In this document: positions 277 to 25,169 of the stretch, in pieces
Layout of the letters: every line of letters begins with the position of its first letter
Position numbering within the stretch: position 1 is the first letter of the stretch
Source: Candidatus Vecturithrix granuli
Lineage (GTDB): Bacteria; Moduliflexota; Moduliflexia; Moduliflexales; Moduliflexaceae
NCBI GenBank assembly: GCA_000739535.1
Contig: DF820464.1
Span: 590,997 to 630,307 of the forward strand
DNA length: 39,311 nucleotides
Direction: 5' to 3'
The notes under the pieces: generated by a model
The model's database searches: none
The model's input: the letters and a program-made list of their open reading frames with translations, nothing else
What the model was told of the DNA's origin: nothing
Program-made: the position numbers and the translations under genes

Positions 277-291
277 TGGCATATTCTATGC
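277..291 (+). promoter_or_regulatory. Sigma-54 (-24/-12) promoter A
   Basis: TGGCATATTCTATGC fits the sigma-54 consensus TGGCAYR-N4-TTGC with a single change in the -12 block and exact GG-to-GC spacing. It lies about 120 bases before the radical-SAM gene at 412 and is the only promoter-like signal seen there. It resembles three other promoters at 18558, 20909 and 25155, which match even better. Confidence 0.75.
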
Positions 292-350
292 AGAGACATT
301 TAATTGAGAATTGTCTTGGCTCGTGAACATTTTAGAAAGGAACCGTCGCG

Positions 351-391
351 CAATTGTGCCGTTTGAGCATTTTCGGCAAACGAGACAATTG
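351..391 (+). promoter_or_regulatory. Hairpin in 5-prime leader of the radical-SAM gene
   Basis: CAATTGT (351-357) pairs with ACAATTG (385-391), and inside it CGTTTG (360-365) pairs with CAAACG (377-382) around an 11-base loop. The hairpin lies between promoter A and the start codon at 412, where no good ribosome-binding site is seen, so a role in translation or mRNA stability is possible. The leader of promoter B has a hairpin in the equivalent place (18588-18610). Confidence 0.45.
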
Positions 392-411
392 AACAATCGC
401 ACTGTATAGTC

Positions 412-2391
412 ATGAAAGTTTATCTGATTAATCCAAAGTTCCCGGTCACGTATTGGGGCTTTGAATATGCCGCAGATTTAAGCGGGATCAAATACACCTC
501 GCCTCCTCTGGGCTTAGCAACCGTCGCCGCATTGACGCCCCGCGACATTAAGGTTGAGATTTGCGATGAAAACATTGAGGAGGTCAATTTTGACACTGAC
601 GCCGATATTATCGGCCTGACCGCCTATCTTGTGCAAGGGCCGCGCGCGTTTCAGATTGCAGCGGAATTTCAACAGCGTGGGAAACTCGTTGTCTTAGGTG
701 GCCCGATCACAAGTTTAGATCCTGCCGGCTGTCAGGGAAAGGCGGATATCCTCTTTCGCGGCGAAGCAGAATATACCTGGCCGCAATTTCTCGCAGATCT
801 TCAGGCCGGCTCGCATCACCCAGAGTATGTTCAAACAGAAACCGTTGATATGCGCGATTCACCGATTCCGCGCTTCGATCTGCTCAAATTCGACCAGTAT
901 CACAAAGCCAGCATTCAAACCACTCGCGGCTGTCCGTTTAACTGCGAATTTTGCGATATTGTCGTGTTATTCGGACGTAAAGTGCGCTGCAAGGCCGTCT
1001 CGCAGGTGATCAACGAACTGCGGGAAGCCGCCAAATATCACGCGCATTCCATTTTTTTTACTGATGATAATTTTGTCGGCAATCCGGCATACGCCAAACA
1101 ACTGCTGCGGGCCATGATCGAATTTCACAAAACGGAACACCTTAGCTTTGATTATATGACGCAGGCGTCGATCAATCTGGCCCGAGATGAGGAACTGCTC
1201 CAATTGTTGTACGAGGCGCACGTCACGAAAGTGTTTGTCGGCATCGAGTCGCCGCGCAAAGAAAGTTTGCAAGAGACCAATAAAGGCCAGAATCTGCACT
1301 ATGATCTCGCGGCGGATGTCAAAAAGATTCAGTCTTACAATATCGGCGTTGCGGCCGGCATGATCGTCGGGTTTGATCATGATGATGTGCATATCTTTCA
1401 GGAACATTTCGAGTTTATGATGACATCCCATGTGGCCTGGGTTATGACCGGGCTGCTGCAAGCGTTCCCCAATACGCCGTTATACGAGCGGATGGCACGG
1501 GAGCATCGGCTGGACAACGCATTTGCCACCGACGGGAATAACACCTCGCTTAACTCGAATATTCTGCCGAAAAGCATGAGCAAAGAGGAACTGATTTCAG
1601 GCTATATCTGGCTGTTGAAACAACTGTACAGTTATGAAAATTACGCCAAACGCGCCATCGGGGCGCTGCATGACTATGCCAAACGTCCGCACATCAGCTT
1701 ATCCTGGCCGAAATTTTCCGAACTCAAAATTGTGCTGCGAACGCTCCGCTATTATCTGCTGACCTTTGATCGGCAACGGCGAGCATTTTCCTTCAAGATT
1801 CTCAAATATGTCTTTCTGCACAAACCACATACGTTTTATGCAGCGATGAGCCACCTGGTCGGGTTTAAACATTTCCATGCCTATGTGTATGACCAACTAG
1901 AAAAAGCGAACGATCTGCGAGCGAGCTTTTTCGGAAAATTCGGCGATTCTGTGAACAGCAACGCCGATGCTCTCAGTCAACATGCGATCTCTGTGTACGC
2001 CGAGCTCAAAAAACAGGCGCTGGCTGTCAGTCGCCAGGCCGCGGCCGCGCGTGAGGAGTTGGGCAAACAAGCGACAGCGGTCAGTCATCACGCCTCGGAA
2101 ACGTATGATGGCGTCAGCCAGCAAGCTGCGGCGTTAATCGCCCAGGCGGCAATGGCGTATGATGCCCTGGGAAAACAGATCGGCCATCACGCAGCGGCAG
2201 CGTATGCAGAGTTGGCGCAGCAAGCAGTGCTGCTAAGCCAGCAAGTCTCTGCGCTGAGCCAGCACATCGCCGCCTATTATGTAGAACTGGGGCAGCAAGC
2301 CGCTGCAATCAGTCAGCAAGCGGCATTGATCGCAGAGACGCTTGAACAACAGGGGGCCTTGCGTTCACCCGGCGCAGGCGATGAGGCTTGA
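412..2391 (+). CDS. B12-binding/radical-SAM protein with repetitive helical C-terminal tail
   Basis: The protein has 659 residues. Residues 1-130 look like a cobalamin-binding-type Rossmann domain. Residues 165-400 are a radical-SAM barrel with the iron-sulfur motif CPFNCEFC (cysteines near 174, 178 and 181) preceded by TTRG. Residues 400-510 resemble the DUF4070 region that follows in this family. Families of this build do methyl transfers or C-C chemistry on lipids and secondary metabolites; the substrate here is unknown. Residues 525-650 are odd: alanine- and glutamine-rich units of about 18 residues, each starting like [AEDV]xLxxQA, predicted to form long amphipathic helices. The usual family length is about 450-520 residues, so this looks like an added tail. 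It is the first gene behind sigma-54 promoter A. The ATG at 412 has no clear ribosome-binding site. Confidence 0.8.
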   Translation: MKVYLINPKFPVTYWGFEYAADLSGIKYTSPPLGLATVAALTPRDIKVEICDENIEEVNFDTDADIIGLTAYLVQGPRAFQIAAEFQQRGKLVVLGGPITSLDPAGCQGKADILFRGEAEYTWPQFLADLQAGSHHPEYVQTETVDMRDSPIPRFDLLKFDQYHKASIQTTRGCPFNCEFCDIVVLFGRKVRCKAVSQVINELREAAKYHAHSIFFTDDNFVGNPAYAKQLLRAMIEFHKTEHLSFDYMTQASINLARDEELLQLLYEAHVTKVFVGIESPRKESLQETNKGQNLHYDLAADVKKIQSYNIGVAAGMIVGFDHDDVHIFQEHFEFMMTSHVAWVMTGLLQAFPNTPLYERMAREHRLDNAFATDGNNTSLNSNILPKSMSKEELISGYIWLLKQLYSYENYAKRAIGALHDYAKRPHISLSWPKFSELKIVLRTLRYYLLTFDRQRRAFSFKILKYVFLHKPHTFYAAMSHLVGFKHFHAYVYDQLEKANDLRASFFGKFGDSVNSNADALSQHAISVYAELKKQALAVSRQAAAAREELGKQATAVSHHASETYDGVSQQAAALIAQAAMAYDALGKQIGHHAAAAYAELAQQAVLLSQQVSALSQHIAAYYVELGQQAAAISQQAALIAETLEQQGALRSPGAGDEA

Positions 2392-2702
2392 ATCAATTCA
2401 GAAAGATTTCGGACGTCGCCAGGATCGTGATTCCGGCGAACACCGAACTCGTGAATGTCATCGGGGAACTGGCGGGGATACTGCCCTTGTCGCGGAAACG
2501 TCGAGATGCGAACGGGGGTTGACAAACACGCGTACCAGTTGTCCGCAGGACGCCGGGTATGCTGTGCACAAGGAGTTGATGGGTGGGTATCAGAGCATGG
2601 CTGGAGTTCGTGAAACACGAGAGGGGACCGGGATTGAGGATCGCTGGGATCCCTATCAGCAGGTGGATAGTCATTAACAACATATCACAGAGGAGATACA
2701 TC
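2392..2702. other. Non-coding gap between radical-SAM gene and small-protein cluster
   Basis: Over about 310 bases I see no convincing gene, terminator with a U-tract, or correctly spaced promoter. Open frames here lack ribosome-binding sites and have skewed composition (rich in R, T, G). A TTGACA at 2519 has no -10 box at the right distance. A strong ribosome-binding site, GAGGAG, appears at the end for the gene at 2703. Confidence 0.5.
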
Positions 2703-3023
2703 ATGAAAAATACAGAAGACAAAATCGCGAGTGCAAAAGAACAATATGTCGAAAAACGTCAGGCTGAAATTGACAAATGGAACACTGAGCTTGAGGACTT
2801 AGAGGCCAAAATCACGGCGGCTGGAGCAGATGCCAAAGCGAAACTCGAACACGAAGAGCATATCAGCGCGCTGCGTCAAAAGCGTGATGAAGCCAAAGCG
2901 AAGCTGGCAGAGATTCAAGCCGCAGGGGATGACACGTGGGAAGGTCTCAAGGATGGCGTGGAAGGTATTTGGACGAGTATTAAGGACGGCTTCGATAAAG
3001 TCGCATCGAAATTTAAATCATAA
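2703..3023 (+). CDS. Small coiled-coil protein
   Basis: The product has 106 residues and starts at ATG 2703, about 8 bases after GAGGAG. Residues 1-75 are highly charged (K, E, A-rich) with heptad-like spacing and should form a long coiled coil. Residues 76-106 hold W-rich amphipathic segments (WEGLKDGVEGIWTSIKDGF) that could lie on a membrane surface. There is no signal peptide. It precedes the GlsB/YeaQ-like membrane protein by 21 bases, so the two are probably cotranscribed. Similar short coiled-coil proteins occur beside stress membrane proteins in environmental bacteria; no biochemical function can be given. Confidence 0.75.
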   Translation: MKNTEDKIASAKEQYVEKRQAEIDKWNTELEDLEAKITAAGADAKAKLEHEEHISALRQKRDEAKAKLAEIQAAGDDTWEGLKDGVEGIWTSIKDGFDKVASKFKS

Positions 3024-3308: not shown

Positions 3309-3458
3309 ATGAATCTTCAACTGCATTTCTCCATTGAATATGCGCTCGCAATTATTGCGGGGATTGCCATTCTCATCACGCCAAAGTTATTAAATTACAT
3401 TGTCGCAATTTACCTGATCGTGGTTGGTGTGATTGGGATTATGGGGCTGAAAATCTAA
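3309..3458 (+). CDS. DUF3096-family small membrane protein
   Basis: This 49-residue protein begins at ATG 3309 after AAGGAGG. It has two hydrophobic stretches, residues 11-23 (ALAIIAGIAILI) and 28-46 (LNYIVAIYLIVVGVIGIMG). The segment TPKLLNYIVAIYLIVVGVIG matches what I know of DUF3096, a family of about 50 residues found in stress-gene clusters. Its function is unknown. A decayed second copy of its C-terminal half lies at 6658-6760, so this family has been duplicated locally. Confidence 0.8.
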   Translation: MNLQLHFSIEYALAIIAGIAILITPKLLNYIVAIYLIVVGVIGIMGLKI

Positions 3459-3669: not shown

Positions 3670-4023
3670 ATGCAACTACCTGCACCTAAAAAAACTGACG
3701 CACAGAACGAAGAAGATCTTTTCCGATTGTTTGATCAGGAGGGGATCGAGTTCTGGAACTTTCTGAAACAGCATAAAGACGAGATCGTGACCATGGTCCA
3801 GGGCTATCACGCCGAGACACTGTTAGGTCAACACGAGGCCAGAGTAGAAACCGTTCACACCGATCCGCTGTCGAACAAACAATACACCGCCGCAGAAAAA
3901 AAAGAACTGGATCGCCTGCGTCTGTTTGTGAAGGACTACTTTGCAGAATTTTTCCTGGCGAGCATGTTTATCATCGGAATGATTCTGGCGGTGCTCTACA
4001 TGCTTGCGCATACCTGGCGTTAA
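3670..4023 (+). CDS. Small protein with C-terminal membrane anchor, unknown function
   Basis: The 117-residue product starts after AAGGGAGG. Residues 1-90 are soluble, charged and probably helical (QKHKDEIVTMVQGYHAETLL is followed by a K/E-rich stretch). Residues 93-113 are one hydrophobic segment (FFLASMFIIGMILAVLYML) ending in HTWR. That makes it a tail-anchored inner-membrane protein with a cytoplasmic N-terminal domain. The gene is 20 bases from the next one, which also encodes a membrane protein. I do not recognise a family. Confidence 0.7.
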   Translation: MQLPAPKKTDAQNEEDLFRLFDQEGIEFWNFLKQHKDEIVTMVQGYHAETLLGQHEARVETVHTDPLSNKQYTAAEKKELDRLRLFVKDYFAEFFLASMFIIGMILAVLYMLAHTWR

Positions 4024-4043
4024 GTCCGAAGGGAGGAGCGACT

Positions 4044-4532
4044 ATGCCGCAATCAGTCAAAATAATCGTGATTCTTATTTTAGGAGTAGCGGCCTTATGG
4101 GATGGTTTTACAACTGTCTATGGGACGGCCAAAATTTTTGGGGTGAAAATCGTGTTCAGTGACGCGCCGCCGCTGACCCTGGACGACCAATCTACGCCCG
4201 AGCGAGCTGAACCAACCGGTGAACGCAAGTTTTTTGTGCTGTTCGCGTCCGTGTTATTCGGCGCGCTGATTTTAGGGCTGATCATCTCCAGCGGCTTGAT
4301 TTTTACCGGGCCGAATAAGTGGTTAAAATTCCTGTGCGGCCTGGCCATCGCGTATGATCTCTTAACGGCCTTCATCGGGAACCTGGATTTGATCTATTAC
4401 GGGCATGTGGTCGGGTTTTTAGGGTGGCTGGTGTTACTCGGATTAACGCTTTTTATGTCTGGTTCGTCGGTGATCTTAGCATTATTATCAAAACGGACCA
4501 GGCTGAAAGTCCTCTCAAAACTGGCCGTCTAA
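4044..4532 (+). CDS. Multi-pass membrane protein, unknown function
   Basis: The product has 162 residues and starts 6-7 bases after GGGAGGAG. Hydrophobic segments lie near residues 6-28, 64-88, 94-112 and 122-147, so about four membrane passes. A polar loop at 38-60 is rich in P, E and D. There are no catalytic motifs. It belongs to the small-membrane-protein run at 2703-4976, which suggests a role in envelope stress; this is inference from position only. Confidence 0.7.
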   Translation: MPQSVKIIVILILGVAALWDGFTTVYGTAKIFGVKIVFSDAPPLTLDDQSTPERAEPTGERKFFVLFASVLFGALILGLIISSGLIFTGPNKWLKFLCGLAIAYDLLTAFIGNLDLIYYGHVVGFLGWLVLLGLTLFMSGSSVILALLSKRTRLKVLSKLAV

Positions 4533-4563
4533 TCCGGCCGTTTCGAAAAAAGGCATGTCAACA

Positions 4564-4758
4564 ATGAAAACAAAAAAGAAGAAACGCAACGCATTAAAAA
4601 TAGCTGTGATACTGACTATCGCGGCCGCAAAGGGCGGCGCGAAAAATGCGACGCCGACGATTTTGCAAGAAAGCTATCACGCGGCCCTGGCCGTACTTAA
4701 TGAAATTGACCACGATCAGCATGGCGACAACAAGGCGCATGAGGAGGAGAGAATATGA
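4564..4758 (+). CDS. Small basic protein, unknown function
   Basis: About 64 residues. I prefer ATG 4564 to ATG 4555 because AAAAAAGG ends only one base before 4555. The N-terminus is very basic (MKTKKKKRN) and is followed by a short hydrophobic alanine stretch, then a segment ending in HDQHGDNKAHEEER that is rich in H, D and E. Its stop TGA overlaps the next start (ATGA at 4755-4758), so translation of the two is likely coupled. I see no family resemblance. Confidence 0.5.
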   Translation: MKTKKKKRNALKIAVILTIAAAKGGAKNATPTILQESYHAALAVLNEIDHDQHGDNKAHEEERI

Positions 4759-4976
4759 GTACAATGAAAATCGCAGCAATCGTATTGATTGCAGCCGGCG
4801 TCCTGGGGCTGGTGTATGGTAGTTTCAGCTATACCAGGGAAACTCATGAACTTAAAGTCGGTCCGGTGGATGTATCGGTGAAGGACAAACAGACGGTCGC
4901 CATCCCGATCGGGGCCGGCGTGGGGGCCATCGCCGTTGGCGCGATCCTTCTGATGCTTGAGCGCAAGAAGAGCTAG
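4755..4976 (+). CDS. Two-pass small membrane protein
   Basis: The 73-residue protein starts at ATG 4755 behind GAGGAGGAG, overlapping the upstream stop by four bases. Residues 5-24 and 48-68 are hydrophobic. Between them is a polar segment with the pattern YTRETHELKVGPVDVSVKDK. I have the impression of a family common beside stress genes in environmental bacteria, but it has no established function. Both ends are probably cytoplasmic, with the loop in the periplasm. It ends the run of small membrane genes; YqgF begins 39 bases later. Confidence 0.72.
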   Translation: MSTMKIAAIVLIAAGVLGLVYGSFSYTRETHELKVGPVDVSVKDKQTVAIPIGAGVGAIAVGAILLMLERKKS

Positions 4977-7217: not shown

Positions 7218-7288
7218 GCCGCAAAATTCAATAACTTGCCAATAGGATCTTTTCAGTTGGCGAGGATTTTTTACAACAAGGTGACATG

Positions 7289-8764
7289 ATGACAAATAGA
7301 GACGACCGACACCACCGCGCGCGTTTACAACGCATTGCCCGCCTGGCGATGCTTGAACGCGGACTGCTGCCCGATTTTTCACCCCAGGCGCTGGCCGAGC
7401 TTAATGAAATCCGTGAGCCTGCTGCACAAACTGACGCCGCGATGCGTGATCTCCGACACCTGATCTGGTGCTCCATCGACAACGATGATTCGCGCGATCT
7501 GGACCAATTGACTGTCGCTGAAGCCCTGCCTGCTGGGAACGTGAAGATTCTGGTTGCCATTGCCGATGTCGCTGCGCTCGTCAAGAAACTATCTGCCCTT
7601 GATGAACATGCGCAGCACAACACCACCTCAGTCTATACCGCAGCCGAAATCTTTCCGATGCTGCCTGAGCGGCTCTCGACCGATCTGACCTCGCTGAATG
7701 ATGCCTCAGACCGCCTGGCCATTGTTGTTGAAATGATTATCGCCGAAGATGGATCGCTGCAAAGTTCGGACATCTATGCCGCAACCGTCCATAACCATGT
7801 CAGGCTGGCCTACAACAGCGTGGCCGATTGGCTAAATGGGAACGGGCCGCTGCCGCCAGGGATCAGCGCGGTGGACGGTCTCGACGAGAACCTCCGGCTT
7901 CAGGATCATGTAGCCCAGAAACTAAAGACCCTCCGGCATACGCACGGCGCACTGAATCTCGAAACCATCGAAGCGCGTCCGGTGTTTGACGGAGACGAAC
8001 TCAAGGATTTAGCCGCCGAACGCAAGAACCGGGCCAAAGATATTATTGCAGACTTCATGATCGCGGCCAACGGCGTGACCGCCCGTTACCTTGCTTCCCA
8101 CAAGTTTCCGTCGCTGCGGCGGATTGTCCGCACACCCAAACGTTGGGACCGGATCGTCGCGCTGGCCGCAGAGCGGGACTTCACGCTGCCCCAGGAACCG
8201 GACTCACAGGCGTTGGAGCAATTCCTGACAGCCGCCAACATCGCTGATCCGCTCCGTTTTCCCGATCTGTCCCTCAGCGTCATCAAATTGCTGGGATCCG
8301 GAGAATACGGCGTCGAATTGCCGGGCGGCAGCGCGCCCGGACACTTCGGGCTGGCGGTCAAGGACTATTCGCACTCCACCGCCCCGAACCGCCGTTACCC
8401 CGATCTGATCACACAGCGATTGCTGAAAGCTGCAATAGCGAAACGGGAAGTGCCCTACACGACCGAGGAATTGACGGCGCTTGCCACGCACTGTACGGCA
8501 ATGGAGAATGCTGTGAAGAAGGTCGAACGACAGGTCGAAAAATCCGCCGCCGCGATGCTGCTGGAATCACGGATCGGGGAGCGGTTTGAGGCCATCGTGA
8601 CTGGCGCATCTGCGAAAGGTACATGGGTTCGTCTGCTGCATCCGCCGATTGAGGGCCGATTGGAGCGCGGTTTTGAAGGTCTGGATGTCGGCGACAAGCT
8701 CCGTGTGCAGTTAACCAGCACAGATGTGGAGCGCGGCTACATTGACTTGAAGAGGGTAGAGTAA
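7289..8764 (+). CDS. RNB-domain exoribonuclease (RNase II/R superfamily)
   Basis: The protein has about 491 residues. ATG 7289 is best spaced from AAGGTGA; ATG 7286 is also possible. Residues 55-400 are an RNB catalytic domain with the metal-binding motif SIDNDDSRDLDQL at about 62-73, then VAIADVAALV and TSVYTAAEIFPMLPERLS. The usual DFDDA is DLDQL here, so the last of the four aspartates is Q; I recall this from a subgroup of bacterial RNB proteins. The C-terminal 75 residues resemble an S1/OB fold (GTWVRLLHPPIEGRLERG). N-terminal cold-shock domains are missing, so it is shorter than RNase R. It degrades RNA 3-prime to 5-prime. Confidence 0.88.
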   Translation: MTNRDDRHHRARLQRIARLAMLERGLLPDFSPQALAELNEIREPAAQTDAAMRDLRHLIWCSIDNDDSRDLDQLTVAEALPAGNVKILVAIADVAALVKKLSALDEHAQHNTTSVYTAAEIFPMLPERLSTDLTSLNDASDRLAIVVEMIIAEDGSLQSSDIYAATVHNHVRLAYNSVADWLNGNGPLPPGISAVDGLDENLRLQDHVAQKLKTLRHTHGALNLETIEARPVFDGDELKDLAAERKNRAKDIIADFMIAANGVTARYLASHKFPSLRRIVRTPKRWDRIVALAAERDFTLPQEPDSQALEQFLTAANIADPLRFPDLSLSVIKLLGSGEYGVELPGGSAPGHFGLAVKDYSHSTAPNRRYPDLITQRLLKAAIAKREVPYTTEELTALATHCTAMENAVKKVERQVEKSAAAMLLESRIGERFEAIVTGASAKGTWVRLLHPPIEGRLERGFEGLDVGDKLRVQLTSTDVERGYIDLKRVE

Positions 8765-8814
8765 ATTCAGATTGCCGCGACCTGTTGCGCTTCATGAAGA
8801 TGAAAGGAGGTCTC

Positions 8815-9441
8815 ATGGCAGCATATCATAAAATCCAGACGGTTTTTCTGAGAGATCCGGCCGCGCACTATGCAACCGTCCTGGAAGGACAGTTTGTAAC
8901 GCCGGAGTTCGAATATCTCAAGCAGAATACCTGGATGTTTACGGAGAAGGTTGATGGGACAAATATTCAAGTACAGTGGAATCGCGAGTCTGTGGAATTT
9001 GCCGAAAAAACAGATCGTGTAGATATTCCAACATGCTTACGTGAAAAACTCCAGGAAATGTTCGCGCCGGAAGTCTTTTTACCCTGGGAAGCTCCAGCAT
9101 TAACGCTGTATGGCGAGGGATACGGAGCCAGAATACAAAGAGGCGGAGGAACGTATATTCCGGATGGGTGCAGTTTCATCCTGTTTGACGTGCTGGTGAA
9201 GGGAATCTGGCTTGAACGACAGGATGTCGAGGACATTGCCAATAAATTACATCTTCAGGTGGTCCCGCTGGTTGGCAAGGGGACGCTTTACAAGGCGATA
9301 GAGATGGTCAAGCGCGGCTATCCATCCCAATTGCGCCGCACCCCGCCAGAAGGAATTGTCATGCGGCCGGAGGTCGAACTGCGTGACCGGCACGGTGAAC
9401 GGATCATTACCAAGCTTAAAATGAAGGATTTTGCCCGTTGA
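8815..9441 (+). CDS. RNA ligase, T4 Rnl2-like nucleotidyltransferase
   Basis: ATG 8815 follows AAAGGAGG and gives 208 residues. The superfamily motifs are clear: motif I EKVDGTN with the AMP-accepting lysine near residue 45, motif III-like LYGEGYG, FILFDVLV, motif IV PPEGIVMRP, and motif V ITKLKMKDF at the end. The protein stops right after motif V, so it is a minimal ligase core without the C-terminal domain of T4 Rnl2. It should seal nicks in RNA using ATP. It lies directly downstream of the RNB exonuclease (50 bases) and upstream of a DNA ligase, suggesting an RNA/DNA repair neighbourhood. Confidence 0.88.
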   Translation: MAAYHKIQTVFLRDPAAHYATVLEGQFVTPEFEYLKQNTWMFTEKVDGTNIQVQWNRESVEFAEKTDRVDIPTCLREKLQEMFAPEVFLPWEAPALTLYGEGYGARIQRGGGTYIPDGCSFILFDVLVKGIWLERQDVEDIANKLHLQVVPLVGKGTLYKAIEMVKRGYPSQLRRTPPEGIVMRPEVELRDRHGERIITKLKMKDFAR

Positions 9442-9458
9442 CCAGCATGAAGGAAATC

Positions 9459-9572
9459 GGTAGTGGTTAAATAGTCAGTGATGCGTTCCCTGAGCGAAGT
9501 CGAAGGAAACGGTAAGCGGCTCGTTTCGACTTCGCTCAACGAGCGGGCATCACTGACTATTTAACCACTACC
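9459..9572. mobile_element. Miniature inverted-repeat element, copy 1 (intact, with 8-bp target duplication)
   Basis: A 114-bp element has perfect 26-bp terminal inverted repeats (9459-9484 and 9547-9572, starting GGTAGTGGTTAAATAG). It is flanked on both sides by AGGAAATC (9451-9458 and 9573-9580), a perfect 8-bp target-site duplication. The interior holds inverted copies of TTCGACTTCGCTCA. It has no coding capacity, so it must be moved by a transposase elsewhere. Copy 2, in the opposite orientation, is at 16393-16506. The insertion lies between the two ligase genes. Confidence 0.92.
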
Positions 9573-9643
9573 AGGAAATCTTATGAGTATATGCGCACAA
9601 GTCGAGATGGTACATCCCGATAAGAAAACATAAAGGAGGTCCT

Positions 9644-10690
9644 ATGACATCTGAACATATCACCTTGTATTTCAAGCAAGGCGGCAGCGATAAAGTATAT
9701 AATGCGTCTTTAGAAGAAGTTAAAGACAACCGGTTCGTGGTGAACTTTGCGTATGGCCGCCGGGGCGCGACGCTGACCACAGGAACGAAAACGAACACGC
9801 CGCTGGATTACGATTCAGCAAAAAAAATCTATGCCAAACTGGTGAAGAGTAAAACCTCGAAAGGCTACGTTCCCGGCGCAGAGGGCCCGCAGTATGTGCA
9901 TACCGACGCGGATACGCGGGACACGGGCGTCCAGTGTCAATTATTAAACTTCATTGAAGAAGCCGAAGCCGAACGACTCATCAAGGCCCCTGATTGGTGG
10001 GCCCAGGAAAAATATGACGGCAAGCGTATGCTGCTCCGCAAAACGGAGACGGTGACCGCGATTAACCGGCAAGGGTTGTCGGTCGACGCGCCGGATGCGA
10101 TCATCACGAGTGCGGGCAGTATTGACCAGTCATACTTAGTGGATGGCGAGGCCGTGGGGGACACCCTGTTTGTCTTTGATCTTTTAGCAATTGACGGAAC
10201 GGATCTCAGGTCAGCGCCCTACGGCCAGAGGCTGGCGCAGCTTGAAATCCTGGGGTTCGGCGAGGCAGTTGTTGTGGCCGAAACCGCCAAAACACCGCGC
10301 GAGAAACAACAATTTTATGATCGGTTACGCGCCTCGGGCGCAGAGGGGATCGTCTTCAAACAGCATGTTGCTCCCTACACGACCGGCAGACCAAACAGCG
10401 GCGGAACACAGGTCAAGTTCAAGTTCTATGCCACCGCCTCGGTCGTGGTCACACAGATCAATGCGAAACGCAGCGTGGCGGTAGCGGTACTTGACGGAGA
10501 ACAATCCATCGAAATCGGGAATGTCACCATTCCTCCCAATAAAGACATTCCAGCGGTGAATGCGATCATTGAAGTGCGTTATCTGTATGCCTATCCGGGC
10601 GGGAGTCTATATCAGCCCACGTACCTCGGCCCACGAGATGACCTGCACGTGCAAGATTGTGTCATCGCCCAGTTGAAATATAAGAGCTAA
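9644..10690 (+). CDS. WGR domain fused to ATP-dependent DNA ligase
   Basis: The 348-residue protein starts after AAAGGAGGTCCT. Residues 5-80 are a WGR domain (VVNFAYGRRGATLTTGTKT; YGRRG replaces WGRxG), known from poly(ADP-ribose) polymerases and DNA-break proteins. Residues 100-260 are the ATP-ligase nucleotidyltransferase core: motif I EKYDGKRML with K123, motif III LFVFDLLAIDG, motif IV AEGIVFKQ, motif V QVKFKFY. Residues 265-345 fit an OB fold. It should seal nicked DNA, with the WGR domain binding ends. It is separated from the RNA ligase only by the miniature element, so the two ligases may once have been cotranscribed. Confidence 0.9.
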   Translation: MTSEHITLYFKQGGSDKVYNASLEEVKDNRFVVNFAYGRRGATLTTGTKTNTPLDYDSAKKIYAKLVKSKTSKGYVPGAEGPQYVHTDADTRDTGVQCQLLNFIEEAEAERLIKAPDWWAQEKYDGKRMLLRKTETVTAINRQGLSVDAPDAIITSAGSIDQSYLVDGEAVGDTLFVFDLLAIDGTDLRSAPYGQRLAQLEILGFGEAVVVAETAKTPREKQQFYDRLRASGAEGIVFKQHVAPYTTGRPNSGGTQVKFKFYATASVVVTQINAKRSVAVAVLDGEQSIEIGNVTIPPNKDIPAVNAIIEVRYLYAYPGGSLYQPTYLGPRDDLHVQDCVIAQLKYKS

Positions 10691-14407: not shown

Positions 14408-15019
14408 ATGAAAATACGTGTTGTGTATTACTCAATGTACGGCCATGTCCACCAGATGGCCGAAGCGATTGCCGAAGGCGCCAGAGAAGTCAGCGGCGCA
14501 GACGTCGCCTTGCGACGCGTGCCGGAAACCCTGTCGGGCGATATTCTCAAGGCGATGGGGGCGATTGACGCGCAAAAAGCCTTTGCGCAAATCCCAATCT
14601 GCACAATTGATGAGTTGGCCGCCGCGGATGCCATCATTTTTGGGACGCCAACCCGTTTCGGCAATATGTGCGGACAAATGCGCCAATTTCTGGATGCGAC
14701 CGGCGCATTGTGGTCGCAAGGGGCCTTAGTTGGCAAGGTTGCCAGTGTGTTTACTAGTACGGCCACGCAGCATGGCGGGCAAGAATCCACCATTCTCAGT
14801 TTTCATGTGACCTTGCTCCACCAGGGGATGATTGTCGTTGGGCTTCCGTATGCCTTTCAAGGACAAACGAGGATCGATGAGATCACCGGGTGCTCGCCAT
14901 ACGGGGCATCAACGATTGCGGGTGGAAAGGGCGAACGCATGCCCTCTGAGAATGAATTGGCGGGCGCCCATTTTCAGGGCAAACATGTGGCGACAATTGC
15001 ATCAAAACTGTTCCGCTAA
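14408..15019 (+). CDS. wrbA: NAD(P)H:quinone oxidoreductase, WrbA type
   Basis: The 203-residue flavodoxin-fold protein has the FMN phosphate loop [19 protein letters not shown] at the N-terminus and the WrbA signatures [18 protein letters not shown] and [30 protein letters not shown] near the end is also diagnostic. It reduces quinones by two electrons with NAD(P)H, avoiding semiquinone radicals, and acts in the cytoplasm as a tetramer. With the superoxide reductase and bacterioferritin downstream it forms an oxidative-stress group. Confidence 0.93.
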
Positions 15020-15030
15020 AGGAACCGTAC

Positions 15031-15104
15031 CTGTGAACAGCCGTGTTCACAGACGCGGGAATGAACATACTCATATAGGATCGTGTAAACACGGCTGTTT
15101 GCAC
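15031..15104 (+). promoter_or_regulatory. Two hairpins with mutually complementary loops, upstream of superoxide reductase
   Basis: Hairpin 1 (15031-15052): CTGTGAAC and GTTCACAG enclose AGCCGT. Hairpin 2 (15083-15104): GTGTAAAC and GTTTGCAC (one G-U pair) enclose ACGGCT. The loops are exact reverse complements, and the two halves are inverted copies, so in RNA they could form either two hairpins with kissing loops or one long stem. Hairpin 2 ends 7 bases before the ribosome-binding site AAAGGAGG of the next gene. It may be regulatory or simply a degenerate palindromic repeat. Confidence 0.5.
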
Positions 15105-15123
15105 GTACAAAGGAGGAATACTG

Positions 15124-15558
15124 ATGAAGATTTTTATCTGTGGAAAGTGTGGACACCTGGCCTTCGATGCAGCCCCGGAAGCGTGCCCCGTCTGTGGGGC
15201 CAAAAAAGAGGAGTTTACGCAGAATGACCGCATTTTCGAGGAATCACGGGCCAACAGCCCGGAAGCGGAAGTGAAACATGTGCCGTTCGTGCAGGTCAAT
15301 AAGGAATGTGGGCTGGTGCCTGACAAAGGGTGTACGGATATTCTGGTGCGGATTGGCAAAACCTTGCATCCTTCGGAAGACAAGCATTTCATTCTGTTCA
15401 TTGATTGTTACCAGAATGGCGCCTACGTGGGACGAGCCCAGCTCTCGCCGGGTCTCTATCCAGCCGCGTGTTTCCATCTCAAAACACCGACCGGCACAGT
15501 GACGATCACGGAACACTGTAATCTGCACGGCTACTGGAAAACGGAGATCATACTGTAA
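15124..15558 (+). CDS. Superoxide reductase (desulfoferrodoxin-like) with N-terminal zinc/rubredoxin-like knuckle
   Basis: The protein has 144 residues. Residues 6-24 carry two CxxC pairs (CGKC and CPVC) like a rubredoxin or zinc knuckle. From residue 55 the neelaredoxin domain shows the superoxide-reductase iron ligands: KHVPFV, then the histidines in KTLHPSEDKHFI, and C plus H in EHCNLHGYW. The lysine before the first histidine, important for catalysis, is present. It reduces superoxide to peroxide without making oxygen, typical of anaerobes and microaerophiles. AAAGGAGG is well placed before ATG 15124. Confidence 0.92.
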   Translation: MKIFICGKCGHLAFDAAPEACPVCGAKKEEFTQNDRIFEESRANSPEAEVKHVPFVQVNKECGLVPDKGCTDILVRIGKTLHPSEDKHFILFIDCYQNGAYVGRAQLSPGLYPAACFHLKTPTGTVTITEHCNLHGYWKTEIIL

Positions 15559-15593
15559 CGAGAGTCGAACATGAAAGCAAGGAGTCGCCCATG

Positions 15594-15689
15594 ACACCCC
15601 GGTTGTCTTCCGAAACACCGGGTGTGGCGGCGTGACAGACGCACGAATAAACCTCACACCCCAGGTATCTCGGAAGACAACCGAGGTGT
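15594..15689. repeat. Long inverted repeat between superoxide reductase and bacterioferritin genes
   Basis: Arms of about 20 bp (15594-15613 and 15670-15689, one mismatch; core GGTTGTCTTCCGA) enclose a smaller inner palindrome (ACACCGGGTGT and relatives). A ribosome-binding-site-like AAGGAG and an ATG at 15592 precede it. No U-tract follows. It is similar in build, but not in sequence, to the palindromes at 15031 and 22313. It could limit read-through between the two genes. Confidence 0.6.
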
Positions 15690-15710
15690 GACATACATTG
15701 GAGAAATAGT

Positions 15711-16178
15711 ATGCAAGGCAATGAAAAAATGATCGCGAAACTCAATGATCTGTTAGCGGATGAATTGACGGCCATCAGCCAATATATCGTCCATTCCGAA
15801 ATGTGCGCGAATTGGGGATACGAACGACTCCATACGGCTGACGAAAAACGGGCGATTGACGAAATGAAACATGCCGAAACGCTCATTGGCCGTATCCTCT
15901 TTCTGGAAGGGATCCCCATCGTCAGCAAGTTGAACCGTATGACCATCGGTGCGGATGTGGAAACCCAACACAAGAATGACCTGACAACCGAGGGTGAAGC
16001 CATCAAATCGTATAATGACGGGATTCGCCTGGCAACAGAGGTCGGCGACAACGGAACCGGTGAGATGCTGAAAGCGATTCTCAAAGATGAGGAAATCCAT
16101 CTCGACTGGCTGGAAGTCCAGCGTGATCAAATCACTCAAGTGGGGATCCAAAATTACCTGGTCGAGCAGATTGGTTAA
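15711..16178 (+). CDS. bfr: Bacterioferritin
   Basis: The protein has 155 residues, the usual length. All ferroxidase ligands sit at canonical positions: E18, E51, H54, E94, E127 and H130. The haem-binding methionine is M52 in DEMKHAE. It should form the 24-subunit iron-storing shell with haem between dimers, storing Fe(III) and removing peroxide. The ATG lies after TTGGAGAAATAGT. It follows WrbA and superoxide reductase, consistent with peroxide made by superoxide reductase being consumed during iron oxidation. Confidence 0.95.
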   Translation: MQGNEKMIAKLNDLLADELTAISQYIVHSEMCANWGYERLHTADEKRAIDEMKHAETLIGRILFLEGIPIVSKLNRMTIGADVETQHKNDLTTEGEAIKSYNDGIRLATEVGDNGTGEMLKAILKDEEIHLDWLEVQRDQITQVGIQNYLVEQIG

Positions 16179-18372: not shown

Positions 18373-18478
18373 TTTGCCAGAGTGGCAATATATGCCAAAT
18401 CTTGCAAGATGCTGCTTTCTCCTGTGTTCTGAATACGTTACAACGAATCAAGGAGAATTTTTTGTCATTTCTGGCAAA
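18373..18478 (+). promoter_or_regulatory. Paired palindromic upstream activator sites (promoter B)
   Basis: Site 1 (18373-18388) reads TTTGCCAGAGTGGCAA. Site 2 (18461-18478) reads TTTGTCATTTCTGGCAAA. Both fit TTTGYCA-N3/4-TGRCAAA. Their starts are 88 bases apart, almost the same as at promoter C (89), and site 2 ends 80 bases before the -24 box. DNA between and after the sites also aligns loosely with promoters A and C, so these are duplicated promoters rather than chance. Confidence 0.75.
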
Positions 18479-18557
18479 TGCACACCTCATCAAATGACAT
18501 TCTCTTCATGCCAAGAAGTCAAACAAACACAATATGTTACATAAAATACAGAGGCGT

Positions 18558-18572
18558 TGGCATGTTCTTTGC
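18558..18572 (+). promoter_or_regulatory. Sigma-54 (-24/-12) promoter B
   Basis: TGGCATGTTCTTTGC matches the sigma-54 consensus at every conserved base. The start site should be near 18584. A hairpin, GTTCTTT (18588-18594) with AAAGAAC (18604-18610), begins the leader. The first gene of the four-gene YqjD/YqjE-like set starts at 18694. Confidence 0.88.
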
Positions 18573-18693: not shown

Positions 18694-18972
18694 ATGATGA
18701 ATAATGTGAAGAATGTTATTGCTGATACGTTGCATAGTGTTGCCGAAGGTCTAGGCGAAAAGGCGGCAGATCAGGACGCGCAATCCGGCATGGCTCAGTA
18801 TGGCAAACACGCATCCGAGTGGCTGGACCATTCAGCCGAGTACGTTCGGCAATTCGACTATAAGAAGGCAGATGCCAGTGTCCGAGAATACGTCAGGCAG
18901 AACCCGGGGCGCAGCCTCTTGATAGCAGGAGGCGTCGGCCTGATGATCGGAGTTATTTTACGACGCAGGTAA
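18694..18972 (+). CDS. YqjD/ElaB (DUF883)-like membrane-anchored protein
   Basis: The protein has 92 residues and starts after CAGGAGG. The N-terminal two thirds are hydrophilic and helical; the C-terminus is VRQNPGRSLLIAGGVGLMIG followed by VILRRR. The NPGRSLLIAGGVGLMIG-plus-arginines ending is the hallmark of the DUF883 family (YqjD, ElaB, YgaM), inner-membrane proteins that in E. coli bind stationary-phase ribosomes at the membrane. It is the first gene behind sigma-54 promoter B, 17 bases ahead of a YqjE-like gene, the same pairing as E. coli yqjD-yqjE. Confidence 0.82.
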   Translation: MMNNVKNVIADTLHSVAEGLGEKAADQDAQSGMAQYGKHASEWLDHSAEYVRQFDYKKADASVREYVRQNPGRSLLIAGGVGLMIGVILRRR

Positions 18973-18989
18973 GGAGGAGGTTTTTTTCA

Positions 18990-19346
18990 ATGAACAACAA
19001 CGTGGTCAACAAGGACGATACATTACAACGCGATTCCTTTACTGAACTGTTGGGACAGCTTGCCAGCAACTCGTCCGCTGTGGTTCACGACGAAATTGAG
19101 CTTGTGATCCAGGGAATTCGAGAACAGGTGACGGCTGCCCGCAGCGGAGTCGTAACCGTCGTGACAGGCGCGGCCATCAGTTTTGCCGCATGCATGGCTC
19201 TTTGCGCGGCCTTGATCCTCGGGCTCACGTCGTATATGACCCCGGTCATGGCGGCGCTTGTCACCGGATCGGCGCTCGCTGTCATCGGTGTCGTGATTGT
19301 CTTCATCGGCTACAAGCAATTGAAGAAACCGATCCTGAAAACATAG
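18990..19346 (+). CDS. YqjE-like/phage-holin-fold membrane protein
   Basis: The product has 118 residues. Residues 14-50 form an amphipathic helix (ELLGQLASNSSAVVHDEIEL), then two membrane helices (about 54-78 and 84-108). This is the pattern of the YqjE/DUF1469 'phage holin' family, chromosomal in most hosts and not evidence of prophage. AAGGAGGAGG precedes the ATG. It lies in the YqjD-YqjE-like order seen in many Gram-negative genomes. The function is not established; it is likely an envelope-stress partner of the YqjD-like neighbours. Confidence 0.8.
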   Translation: MNNNVVNKDDTLQRDSFTELLGQLASNSSAVVHDEIELVIQGIREQVTAARSGVVTVVTGAAISFAACMALCAALILGLTSYMTPVMAALVTGSALAVIGVVIVFIGYKQLKKPILKT

Positions 19347-19381
19347 GCGACAATGCAAACATTGAAAAAGGAGGACAGGGA

Positions 19382-19858
19382 ATGGCTGAAAGAGAGTACC
19401 TGACGAACGAAAAGGAAGCGGATGTCGAGCGCAGTTCCGAAAATATCCTTCAGGACATCGCGGAAGGAAAAGAGAACCTTTCCCAGACCGTCGATCAAAT
19501 CGGCGAGCGGATCAAAGAGAAACTGGATTGGCGCGAATATGTGAAGGATTCTCCATACTGGGCGATAGGGGCTGCCGCCGGCCTGGGCTATCTGGCCTCA
19601 CGGGCGTTCCCAACACGCACCACGCCCATGGAGCGCATCATGGGTTCCATGACCGGGCACGTTCGCAACTCACTCGGCGGTCTGCTTGTCGGAGTTGTTG
19701 GGCCCAGCCTCATCAAGGGAGCCCTGCTGAGTATCGCCACGAAGACGGCCGCCGGTTGGATAGAGAATGCCATCTCGACAGACGGGACAAGCGGTGACGC
19801 CGGCTCGCGACCGCAGACAGGACGTGATTCGACCAGTGACCCGAGCACAGATACGTAA
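19382..19858 (+). CDS. DUF3618/YqjD-like membrane protein
   Basis: ATG 19382 follows AAAAAGGAGG, giving 158 residues. Residues 22-45 (ILQDIAEGKENLSQTVDQIG) match the I-x-x-T-R/x-x-N-L-S-x-T-V-D-x-I signature of DUF3618-type proteins. Residues 55-75 (SPYWAIGAAAGLGYLASRAF) are one membrane span, and 92-118 are a second, weaker one. The tail is S/T/D-rich and probably disordered. It is the third gene in the promoter B unit. Confidence 0.72.
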   Translation: MAEREYLTNEKEADVERSSENILQDIAEGKENLSQTVDQIGERIKEKLDWREYVKDSPYWAIGAAAGLGYLASRAFPTRTTPMERIMGSMTGHVRNSLGGLLVGVVGPSLIKGALLSIATKTAAGWIENAISTDGTSGDAGSRPQTGRDSTSDPSTDT

Positions 19859-19895
19859 AAAATGACGAACAATCATCTTTTTTAGGAGGATATCC

Positions 19896-20249
19896 ATGGA
19901 TACTAATAAGAGTAAACCTAAGACCCCCAAACAGCAAACGGCAGAAGAGCCTGCCAGCGCCAGTGCGACAGCTCAAAACATCGTGGAGCAAGGCGCCGAG
20001 GCTTACGGGCAAGCGGAGCAGGCGGTCAGTGATGTGTATGATAAAACGACCCAGAAGGTCAACGAAACGTATGCGCAGGCCAAGAGTTATAGTCACGAAA
20101 ATCCGGGCAAGACAATCCTGATCGCATTAGGGATCGGAGTAGGCCTGGGTCTTCTCCTGGGTGCAAGCACTCATCGCTCGCGTACCAGTCGGTTTGCCCA
20201 ACCCGTGGTCAATGCGCTCTCCGACATTGCGCTGGAGTTGTTCCGGTAA
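19896..20249 (+). CDS. YqjD-like (DUF883) membrane-anchored protein, second copy
   Basis: The protein has 117 residues. It has a disordered N-terminus, a helical region (AEAYGQAEQAVSDVYDKTTQ) and the family ending SHENPGKTILIALGIGVGLG followed by LLLGASTHRSR, then an extra 15-residue tail (RFAQPVVNALSDIALELFR) past the usual end. TTAGGAGG lies before the ATG. It is a distant paralogue of the product at 18694, so this unit encodes two DUF883 proteins around a YqjE-like and a DUF3618-like protein. Confidence 0.8.
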   Translation: MDTNKSKPKTPKQQTAEEPASASATAQNIVEQGAEAYGQAEQAVSDVYDKTTQKVNETYAQAKSYSHENPGKTILIALGIGVGLGLLLGASTHRSRTSRFAQPVVNALSDIALELFR

Positions 20250-20714: not shown

Positions 20715-20821
20715 TTTGCCAGAATGTCAAATTGCGCCATATCTGGCAATATGCTGTGTTCTCTGGTGTTATGAGCATATAACGGATATTCGAGAAACAG
20801 TGTTTTGTCATTTTTGGCAAA
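20715..20821 (+). promoter_or_regulatory. Paired palindromic upstream activator sites (promoter C)
   Basis: Site 1 (20715-20731) is TTTGCCAGAATGTCAAA. Site 2 (20804-20821) is TTTGTCATTTTTGGCAAA. Starts are 89 bases apart. Site 2 ends 88 bases before the -24 box. Downstream of site 2 the sequence aligns with the DNA upstream of promoter D over about 45 bases (TTCTG-TC-A-GCACC-TCACA pattern). Confidence 0.75.
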
Positions 20822-20908
20822 TTTTTCTGTTCTATGCACCATCACATGACAGGCCATACGTTCCAGAAGACAAGCCAACACAAGACGTTGGTGGACATAA
20901 GGAGGCGT

Positions 20909-20923
20909 TGGCATGTTTGTTGC
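20909..20923 (+). promoter_or_regulatory. Sigma-54 (-24/-12) promoter C
   Basis: TGGCATGTTTGTTGC matches the consensus at every conserved position and is preceded by GGAGGCGT, as promoter B is by GAGGCGT. It should drive the outer-membrane-type gene at 21049 with a leader of about 115 bases. Confidence 0.88.
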
Positions 20924-21048
20924 TTTAGAACCATAAGTGAAACACGATCAGCAAGAGCAGACAGCCATGATCACGCAGTCAGCGCGCTCACGGCGGACGA
21001 GGAAGAGTCTAACATGGTGCAGTAAAACTAAACAATATGGAGGTTACA

Positions 21049-22287
21049 ATGATGAAAAAATTGAGTGTATGGGTGTTCCTGGGTTTCATCGCATTACCAA
21101 TCTCGGCATTCGCGATTAGTCTGCGCGACTATACCAATCCGGACACGTCGTATCAAGAGGCGTATCTTTCCGGACGATTGAACTTTCAGGATAAGGGGGA
21201 TAATCGCCTGTCGGCAGAAGATTGTGATGAGGAAGATGAAGAATGTACAGGAGGCCAGGCCAGTTACAATGGGACGGCGTTAGCAAATTATGAAATGTAC
21301 TATAGCACCTTACCATTTAGCTGGATTTTCCAGGTTGATGGAACTTTTGATTTCGAACGCAGTGCGGAAAAAGAAGCAGATTCACAAGAAGGGTATGAAA
21401 TCGCTGCTCGCACCGTTGCGGATAAATACTACAAAGACACCAAATTTTTAGGGTATGGTTCAGGAGATTTTACGTATCGAAAACTCATGGGGTCCGATGA
21501 TGCCGACGATCCGTATGCCAAACTTGGAATAGGAGTTGGTTATGGCCGGGTTATTGACGCCACCGTATTAGCCAAAGCAATGCGGAGCATTGAGGATTTG
21601 CAGAAATATGGCGTGATTACCCGGGAGTTATCGGATCAGGGATACTTGAAATTTGCAGAACTTATTGATAAAGAAAAAGAATTCAAGAGTGAATATGGGG
21701 CGGTCGAATATGAGAAGTATTGGTTCGAAGCCATGGAAGAGGTCCTCCGGGCAGAAGGGATTCTCGCTGAGGACGCCCTCGGCGCAATGGGAGTAATCAG
21801 AGTGCGTGAAATTCTGATCAATGAACCGTTTAGCGTTCGCAAGCATGGATGGATTGCGCGAGGAGGACTCGGGTTCGTGCTCTCCAATTTTGATGGAAGT
21901 GATAGTGATCCATCGCTCGATGCCTCGTTCGAGTATGCGTATCCCTATACATATCGGCTTCAACTTATTGAGCGAGCTACGTATTCAACGATTTTGAGCG
22001 ATGACATTGTGCATCAAATTAATAACGCGGTGTCGGCGACGTATGAAGTCTCGGATCGGATTGATTGGGAAAATCGCTGGACGGTCGGTCTCACCCTTCC
22101 GACAGAGAGTGGGGCGAAAAACCTGATTTCGAATAATCTTTCGACCACGTTCCGCTACTATATCTCGAATAAAATCAATTTTGATACTACCGTAAGCCTG
22201 AACCATCTTGATGATGGCCGTGACGACAACGGGAATGATGACCTGGAAACGACAATTTTTGCCGGCATCACCTATCGGATCAGGTAA
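21049..22287 (+). CDS. Outer-membrane beta-barrel-type protein of unknown function
   Basis: About 412 residues. GGAGG at 21039-21043 fits ATG 21049 or 21052 and excludes 21037, which overlaps it. A signal peptide (KKLSVWVFLGFIALPISAFA) is followed by a mature protein rich in acidic residues. The central part (about 165-245) is helical and charged. The last 150 residues alternate polar and hydrophobic residues, with aromatic strand ends (RLQLIERATYSTI, WTVGLTLP, STTFRYYI, FDTTVSLNHL), closing ETTIFAGITYRIR, as in barrels that insert into the outer membrane. It is directly behind sigma-54 promoter C. Its 3-prime end is duplicated at 16507-16625. Confidence 0.7.
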   Translation: MMKKLSVWVFLGFIALPISAFAISLRDYTNPDTSYQEAYLSGRLNFQDKGDNRLSAEDCDEEDEECTGGQASYNGTALANYEMYYSTLPFSWIFQVDGTFDFERSAEKEADSQEGYEIAARTVADKYYKDTKFLGYGSGDFTYRKLMGSDDADDPYAKLGIGVGYGRVIDATVLAKAMRSIEDLQKYGVITRELSDQGYLKFAELIDKEKEFKSEYGAVEYEKYWFEAMEEVLRAEGILAEDALGAMGVIRVREILINEPFSVRKHGWIARGGLGFVLSNFDGSDSDPSLDASFEYAYPYTYRLQLIERATYSTILSDDIVHQINNAVSATYEVSDRIDWENRWTVGLTLPTESGAKNLISNNLSTTFRYYISNKINFDTTVSLNHLDDGRDDNGNDDLETTIFAGITYRIR

Positions 22288-22363: not shown

Positions 22364-22442
22364 CACCGACAAACTTTTAAAACAGTTTCTAAGGTGATTG
22401 TGTGTCATGTAATATTGTGAATGCAGAATGAAAAACAGATGT

Positions 22443-22510
22443 ACCGCGAAACTGAAGTTTCGCGGGCGTAGTAATGGTGCGCGAAACTGGAGTTTCGCGC
22501 TACATTTTCA
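22443..22510. repeat. REP-like palindromic repeat, copy 2 (tandem pair)
   Basis: Two units lie side by side: an imperfect one (CCGCGAAACTGAAGTTTCGCG at 22444-22464 has one central change) and one at 22479-22510 identical to window bases 28-59. Both copies in the window end ...CTACATTTTCA and are followed by a purine-rich AGG sequence. Confidence 0.75.
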
Positions 22511-22521
22511 AAGGAGTCTGC

Positions 22522-23825: not shown

Positions 23826-23973
23826 CGGAAGAATGGGGGATTGGAGTTGGATGAACGGTTGCCTGTTGACAGAAGATCGCTTCGTGCAAGGCAACAGTTG
23901 GGGAGAGCGTCACTCCTGAAAAAAGGAAAAGAGGTCATCACTAACCATGTATCTTATGAAAGGAGGCCGTGCT

Positions 23974-24348: not shown

Positions 24349-24480
24349 ATATTGGATAGATAACGCGGAGATGATGGGTAGGGAAGATTCAGAACATGTC
24401 TGTGGTTCGGGAAGCATGGTCTGTGAGAAGAGGAGCGTCTCTTCGGAACCGATCAACAGGTGAATAGGCATGAACAACAT

Positions 24481-24715
24481 CTAACGCAATCCCCCCTCAA
24501 TCCCCCTGTAAACGGCAGAGCTGTTAAGTTTTCACCTGGCAGGCCGTCTGGACTCCGCTCGACGTGCGGTGTTCCGGTCATCGAGCGAAGTCGAGATGAC
24601 AAACGTCCGCAGAAGTTAACAGCCCTGCCCGTAAACGGGGGGAAGTTCACAAAAGAGCGTAACATCTCTTCCCCCCGCTTGCGGGGGGATAAAGGGGGGT
24701 GCATAAATCCTGATC
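24481..24715. repeat. Palindromic element type P, copy 1, interrupted by another element
   Basis: This is the same element as 34865-34969 (CGCAAT-CCCCCCTCA-TCCCCC-GTAAACGGGGGGAAG ... CTTCCCCCCGCTTGCGGGGGG ... GTGCATAAxTCCTG). Here the outer left end is decayed and 116 bp are inserted in the middle (24514-24629). It sits in the gap after the DUF2007 gene, where no other gene is seen between 24349 and 24912. Confidence 0.75.
24514..24629. mobile_element. Miniature inverted-repeat element nested in element P
   Basis: Terminal repeats of 17 bp (GGCAGAGCTGTTAAGTT at 24514-24530; its inverse with one change at 24613-24629) enclose an interior with CGAGCGAAGTCGAGATGAC. GTAAAC is present on both sides (24508-24513 and 24631-24636) but only once in the uninterrupted copy near 34900, which supports insertion with a short target duplication. 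Confidence 0.75.
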
Positions 24716-24912
24716 CCTTATAAAAAGTGTAGAAGACAATCTGAAAAATGCAAAAGACGAATAGGTGAAGCGGAAGGCTCAAACCAGGAAAGGAGTCTGC
24801 CTGTCGCGTACCCGCCTCGATTGTGCCGCCCACGCTTAGGATCAACGTGTTGACGCTGTTGCCGGGCATAGATCGTCACACGAGACGGATGACGGACAGG
24901 TCAGGATATGTT

Positions 24913-25023
24913 ATGTTGGAAGTAATTGCTGCTGTTTTGGTCATATTGGGGGTACTGGTCAGCGGCGTTATCGTGGCCGTGATCGAGCTGATAGGAATGT
25001 GGCAGGATGCCAAGAAAGGTTGA
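24913..25023 (+). CDS. 36-residue single-pass membrane peptide
   Basis: The frame from ATG 24913 reads MLEVIAAVLVILGVLVSGVI, then VAVIELIGMWQDAKKG. It is one hydrophobic helix with an acidic start and basic end. Only a weak AGGAT precedes the ATG. It is the last frame before promoter D. It would fit the many tiny membrane proteins of this window, but it could be non-coding. Confidence 0.42.
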   Translation: MLEVIAAVLVILGVLVSGVIVAVIELIGMWQDAKKG

Positions 25024-25154
25024 GCGGGTTGCCCCGTGTGTGCCCATTGTTCCCGTTTGCCACTCAATGCTTCTGCTCCACGCACCCTCACACGACGAGC
25101 CTTAATGTTCAGAAGCCTTGCAAAAACAATGAGTTGATGAACATGGGGCAATGT

Positions 25155-25169
25155 TGGCATGGTTGTTGC
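25155..25169 (+). promoter_or_regulatory. Sigma-54 (-24/-12) promoter D
   Basis: TGGCATGGTTGTTGC matches every conserved sigma-54 base. The upstream 100 bases align with promoter C, but the activator palindromes have decayed: only a half-site TTTGCCA near 25058 remains. The leader (25184-25223) shares its sequence with promoter C's leader and with 16701-16741. Confidence 0.85.

Follow-up and report, generated by a model that had tools for sequence, protein, structure and literature searches.

Nine duplicated sigma-54-type promoters and a proposed local envelope-stress regulon in Candidatus Vecturithrix granuli

Duplicated promoters and their upstream operators

The window analysed here is the whole 39,311-nucleotide stretch C20:590997-630307 (contig C20 is DF820464.1) from the population genome UASB270, 'Candidatus Vecturithrix granuli', of the candidate phylum KSB3/Modulibacteria (PMC4312070), a genome of 8,384,694 bases in 21 contigs. 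The host is an uncultured filamentous wastewater bacterium, its phylum causes wastewater bulking, and the word 'sigma' is not present in the main text of the genome paper (PMC4312070). Four sigma-54 -24/-12 elements were found on the plus strand of the window as matches to TGGCAT-N5-WTGC, each in front of a gene cluster: TGGCATATTCTATGC (promoter 1, 277..291), which is homologous to eight other copies, and TGGCATGTTCTTTGC (promoter 2, 18558..18572), TGGCATGTTTGTTGC (promoter 3, 20909..20923) and TGGCATGGTTGTTGC (promoter 4, 25155..25169), which were also recovered by leave-one-out profiles. The first-pass annotation of this DNA had placed the elements at these four positions, with TTGC in three sites and ATGC at 277, and at 62-125 bases from the first gene; all of this was borne out, with gaps of 120, 121, 113 and 63 bases to the start codons. 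Its estimate of the extent, four promoters within 25 kb, was too small: nine homologous promoters of about 240 bp lie across a 55-kb island (C20:584.6-639.5 kb), five of them just outside the window at C20:584638 (minus strand), 588250, 636183, 636715 and 639479.

The bare core motif exceeds chance modestly in the window (4 seen versus 0.5 expected, a count reached in 1 of 100 shuffles), and it is enriched genome-wide, with 115 matches compared with 19 when the pattern is reversed as a control, but the operator context that the promoters share is found in the island only. It is the homology of the surrounding DNA, and not the motif alone, that marks the sites as real. The nine copies align across about 240 bp, and TGG...TGC with exact sigma-54 spacing (GG and GC at -24/-12) is present in all nine. 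Each held-out copy was recovered by its leave-one-out profile in a 272-kb search (E 2e-12 to 4e-56), and the ninth promoter, C20:584638, was detected by a profile built without it (E 3e-10). The annotation's view of these sites as duplicated promoters in alignable DNA is supported. A search of 58 other genomes with the promoter profile gave nothing convincing (best E 0.004).

Upstream activating sequences (UAS) form an ordered array, UAS1a-UAS1b-UAS2 and then -24/-12 from far to near, in seven of the nine promoters. These operators are inverted repeats of the form TTTGYCA-N3/4-TGRCAAA, UAS1a having TTTGCCA-N3/4-TGRCAAA and UAS2 having TTTGTCATTTNTGGCAAA. In promoter 1 they are TGTGCCACTTATGACGAA (UAS1a, 84..101), CATGTCATAAGTGGCAAA (UAS1b, 103..120) and TTTGTCATTTATGACAAA (UAS2, 172..189); in promoter 2, TTTGCCAGAGTGGCAAT and TATGCCAAATCTTGCAAG (UAS1a and UAS1b, 18373..18408) and TTTGTCATTTCTGGCAAA (UAS2, 18461..18478); and in promoter 3, TTTGCCAGAATGTCAAA and TGCGCCATATCTGGCAAT (UAS1a and UAS1b, 20715..20750) and TTTGTCATTTTTGGCAAA (UAS2, 20804..20821), all on the plus strand. 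Their mutual spacing is rigid, 17-19 bp from UAS1a to UAS1b and 69-72 bp from UAS1b to UAS2, and UAS2 lies at anything from 92 to 106 bp from -24; this combination fits the expectation for an enhancer array. The operators stand at -92 to -106 and -164 to -194. Promoter 636715 keeps UAS2 and has one further operator at a different position. The full operator palindrome has three matches in the 8.38-Mb genome, all within the window (UAS2 of promoter 1 is one), and the combined operator-plus-promoter pattern has seven genome matches, all in the island, versus 0 for its reversed control.

Between operators and promoter lies a CAA-N4-TTR box resembling a site for integration host factor (IHF): TAAGGCGTTA in promoter 1 (249..258, 28 bp upstream of the -24 TGG), CAATATGTTA in promoter 2 (18530..18539), CAAGACGTTG in promoter 3 (20881..20890) and CAATGAGTTG in promoter 4 (25127..25136), all on the plus strand. 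It stands 27-28 bp before the -24 TGG in 8/9 island promoters and in 0/30 other motif matches. At RpoN promoters, IHF typically binds between the enhancer and the promoter (PMC7962754), and four genes of the HU/IHF family are present in this genome.

Since the copies arose by duplication, and the island is also dotted with other short repeats of the GCGCGAAACTGGAGTTTCGCGC type, the nine might be read as a dispersed non-regulatory repeat containing a sigma-54-like sequence by accident. Such a repeat would not confine change to the bases outside the motifs. Here conservation is concentrated on the functional elements and not on the flanks, with operators, box and -24/-12 kept and the remainder diverged (identity 0.99 for -24/-12 and 0.88 for UAS2, versus 0.54-0.61 for the flanks); in addition, all nine copies are oriented toward genes, with none elsewhere in the 8.38 Mb and none inside genes or in random orientation. 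We consider the repeat explanation extremely improbable and reject it on pattern exclusivity, profile recovery and element-focused conservation. Chance occurrence of the promoter set is likewise rejected on the pattern counts, the profile recovery and the same element-focused conservation.

Genes downstream of the promoters

The eight plus-strand promoters stand before genes of their own orientation; the ninth is on the minus strand and precedes a minus-strand gene. All genes described for promoters 1 to 4 are on the plus strand. The first gene of promoter 1 encodes a B12-binding radical SAM protein with DUF4070 (412..2391), a paralogue of which is located after promoter C20:588250. It is followed by genes for a 106-aa helical protein (2703..3023, weak coiled-coil matches only), a GlsB/transglycosylase-associated small membrane protein (PF04226, 3045..3296), a DUF3096 small membrane protein (3309..3458) and four small proteins of 117, 162, 67 and 73 aa, mostly with hydrophobic segments, which probably share the operon (3670..4976). 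Promoter 2 precedes a YqjD/YqjE-like set (18694..20249) consisting of a 92-aa DUF883_C protein, a 118-aa holin superfamily III/YqjE-like protein and DUF883_C-like proteins of 158 and 117 aa, the DUF883_C matches falling under the curated cut-off. Promoter 3 is followed by the gene of a predicted 416-aa exported protein with no Pfam or NCBIfam match (21037..22287), which the annotation took for a putative outer-membrane barrel. Behind promoter 4 are genes for a probable 178-aa exported protein with no family match (25233..25769) and for the Band_7 proteins of hflK and hflC type (25833..27877), hflK scoring above the curated equivalog cut-off. Read-through from promoter 4 may also reach a P-type cation ATPase, GrpE, a small protein and phosphoketolase (27874..34140), as these genes are co-oriented and tightly spaced.

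The targets outside the window comprise a second radical SAM and GlsB-like pair; a tiny membrane peptide; a DUF883-like peptide followed by a rhomboid protein, a CbpA-like DnaJ and a CbpM-like protein; and a gene without family match followed by a GlsB-like gene, whose operon, if it continues, would take in glycosyl enzymes, a GGDEF protein and a hybrid kinase as well. The two radical SAM and GlsB pairs and other repeated stretches show growth of the island by duplication.

Several other features were seen in and near the island. The GCGCGAAACTGGAGTTTCGCGC inverted-repeat family occurs between genes at 28-49 and 22440-22515 of the window and at C20:589900, 590364 and 648298. A row of RNase II-type exonuclease, RNA ligase-family and WGR-DNA/RNA ligase-family genes (7286-10690) may be a nucleic-acid repair cluster, and a row of flavodoxin-like, desulfoferrodoxin-like and ferritin-like genes (14408-16178) forms a putative oxygen-defence cluster between two sigma-54 operons. 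An Eco57I-type restriction-methylase fusion on the minus strand (35913-39068) and, further right on the same strand, a 1255-aa frame that is helicase-like by eye (L066:1607-5374) make up a possible defence locus inside the island.

The candidate activator and the proposed circuit

The annotation had called for rpoN and enhancer-binding-protein genes to be looked for; the genome has one intact rpoN and about 45 full sigma-54 activators. The nearest activator gene (C20:584835-587201, minus strand) lies 3.8 kb left of the window and encodes a REC-PAS-PAS-AAA+-Fis protein with GAFTGA. Directly at its stop codon starts the ninth promoter, followed by the genes of a small membrane protein of about 138 aa (one hydrophobic segment) and of a 210-aa regulator that has a canonical receiver and a Fis-type helix-turn-helix (HTH) and is without AAA+ domain. 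The HTH of this AAA-less regulator is 69% identical to that of the neighbouring activator over 49 residues, with LGIPLRTLYRKIKKY identical; its next best-scoring match among 240 genomes reaches 52% and belongs to an activator on contig C17 of the same genome. The difference suggests that the AAA-less regulator is a local offshoot of the neighbouring activator's DNA-binding domain. A search of genome_contigs with the candidate activator returned distant receiver matches only.

The promoters could be genuinely sigma-54-dependent and yet answer to another of the 45 or so activators, for example the paralogues at C17 316.9 kb, C20 262 kb or C10 130 kb, the adjacent one serving other genes. Cross-recognition is conceivable, because about ten PAS-type activators of the genome form a clade with 44-57% identity. 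However, the C17 activator (316.9 kb), whose HTH is the next most similar among the activators scored, adjoins promoters of its own that have the island layout with a different half-site, TTTGCCATTTNNTGCAAA; the 3' end of the adjacent activator abuts a promoter of the island family; and the AAA-less regulator under that ninth promoter shares the adjacent activator's HTH. We therefore judge another activator to be an improbable choice. Sites with the TTTGCCATTTNNTGCAAA half-site (C17:317928, 322706 and 331747) would make up a paralogous sigma-54 regulon beside C-type lectin, 5'-nucleotidase-like, large hybrid sensor and CHAT-domain genes. A further paralogue, at C17:457 kb, shows GGCCAAAAATGGCC at -92, with a repeat resembling it at -164. 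Operator and HTH thus vary together among the paralogues, the layout being kept while half-sites change with the activator.

These paralogues also bear on whether the palindromes are activator sites at all. They might be operators of another regulator, either the AAA-less protein alone, with its canonical receiver and Fis-type HTH, or a repressor, with the sigma-54 elements answering any activator free in solution; sigma-54 activators can indeed work without specific DNA sites. The positions at -92 to -106 and -164 to -194 and the ordered array are, however, typical of activator enhancers, and the layout recurs with changed half-sites beside paralogous full-length activators, beside which an AAA-less partner was not detected. 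This makes the alternative even less probable than the choice of another activator.

Co-location of activator genes and sigma-54 promoters is general in this genome, by statistics drawn from 100 of the 115 bare-motif sites. Among the matches listed, 10 of 93 sigma-54 sites lie within 1.5 kb of activator genes (1.5 expected, p 3e-6), and 12 of 31 activators have a strong sigma-54 site within 500 bp 3' (null 5.5%). For many activator genes such a site is found often about 190-230 nt past the stop codon, often with inverted repeats between; examples of this modular arrangement, an activator with its own promoter, are C17:458154, C11:273697, C20:293112 and C20:723856. Such co-location is known in Desulfovibrio (PMC4641369).

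We conclude that the four promoters of the window very probably belong, with the other five, to one chromosomally local regulon under a single activator, with a proposed role in envelope and general stress. The multi-operon sigma-54 regulon proposed by the annotation is likewise favoured by the promoter spacing, the intact rpoN, the roughly 45 activators, the alignable promoters and the exclusive operators, evidence that is drawn from sequence throughout. In the proposed mechanism, RpoN-RNA polymerase would wait at the -24/-12 element until a signal modifies the REC-PAS-PAS-AAA+-Fis activator, which would occupy the UAS1a-UAS1b-UAS2 array; an IHF/HU-type protein would bend the DNA at the CAA-N4-TTR box so that the looped activator reaches the polymerase, and ATP hydrolysis would open the promoter. 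The output would be a stationary-phase or envelope-stress programme of small membrane proteins, HflKC, chaperone and envelope genes. The ninth promoter would also yield the AAA-less regulator, which, having the same recognition helix, would bind the same operators and give no activation, providing feedback or signal integration; it is most simply seen as a competitor or co-binder at those operators. A more specific version, which we put forward tentatively and rate at somewhat less than even, makes the AAA-less regulator a dedicated competitor for the operators: when a separate kinase phosphorylates it, it would occupy part of the three-operator arrays and throttle or time the whole regulon as an incoherent feedback loop, in a bacterium using sigma-54 for an RpoS-like stress programme.

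Several points weigh against this interpretation. The receiver of the candidate activator has EA where DD is usual, which makes its phosphorylation doubtful. The link between this best candidate activator and the operators draws on position and paralogue comparison. An orthologous system was not found in the three nearest genomes, where the best-scoring activator match has 44% identity, so that conservation across species could not be used. The box fits the IHF consensus WATCARNNNNTTR over the 3' half only, the 5' half being unmatched. Lastly, the 25155 promoter has the box and -24/-12 without recognisable operators, an exception to the sharing of operators that is otherwise common and restricted to the island promoters; it was recovered by the profile across its proximal 104 bp only, and for want of operators it is the weakest of the window's four.

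Comparison with known systems and significance

The E. coli Psp regulon has sigma-54, PspF, two UASs and IHF (PMC3709507), and resembles the island in its sigma-54 promoter, tandem upstream operators, DNA-bending help and a response to envelope stress, which in the island is proposed. It differs in having two promoters rather than nine, and in that PspF is without REC or PAS and is inhibited by PspA, whereas the candidate activator is REC-PAS-PAS. PspF was rejected as its identity (239 bits versus a cut-off of 443.55), and the island proteins scanned gave no PspA/B/C-family match. PrsK-PrsR and RpoN control PEP-CTERM genes in a wastewater bacterium that forms flocs (PMC9850573), likewise with sigma-54, a Fis-type activator and a common enhancer at several envelope-related genes. 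PrsR (TIGR02915) was rejected as well (309 bits versus 502.6), and no PEP-CTERM sorting match was found among the proteins scanned. The Desulfovibrio vulgaris sigma-54 regulome includes envelope-stress and general-stress regulons and has many activators, often beside their own sigma-54 promoter, but the regulons seen in the part of that account available mostly span one to few operons, and nine clustered promoters or a helix-sharing AAA-less regulator were not seen there (PMC4641369). RegA/ActR/PrrA response regulators consist of a receiver and a Fis-type HTH with no AAA+ domain, the same make-up as the 210-aa regulator at the island edge; the latter differs in the closeness of its HTH to that of a neighbouring activator.

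The targets appear to recall RpoS-type stress genes of E. coli, namely the YqjD/YqjE-like, GlsB-like, CbpA/CbpM-like, HflKC and GrpE genes. In E. coli, genes of the GlsB and CbpA/CbpM types are linked to RpoS. YqjD/ElaB-type C-tail-anchored proteins require RpoS there (PMC6389858). The island thus overlaps the E. coli RpoS regulon in targets and differs from it in having sigma-54-type promoters. RpoS (TIGR02394) was sought in the genome and no protein passed (best 261.9 bits versus a cut-off of 378.7).

Already known are sigma-54 promoters and their activators, tandem operators and, as a described theme, sigma-54 control of the cell exterior (PMC3162934; also PMC4641369). The annotation's suggestion that sigma-54 control of these envelope genes is undescribed therefore holds for this gene set and circuit and not for the general theme. 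In the literature searched, there appears to be no description of this target set under sigma-54, of nine duplicated promoters in one cluster or of an AAA-less regulator that would share the activator's operators; a literature search for a regulator of that last kind found none, which is weak evidence of absence.

The island would give a poorly known uncultured phylum, KSB3/Modulibacteria, a concrete proposed stress-envelope regulon, and suggests that, where RpoS is absent, genes of E. coli RpoS type can run on sigma-54 and one activator. The paralogous activators, with fixed operator positions and changed half-sites, are a natural data set for the recognition code of the Fis-type HTH, and the AAA-less partner points to a simple means of building feedback into sigma-54 control.

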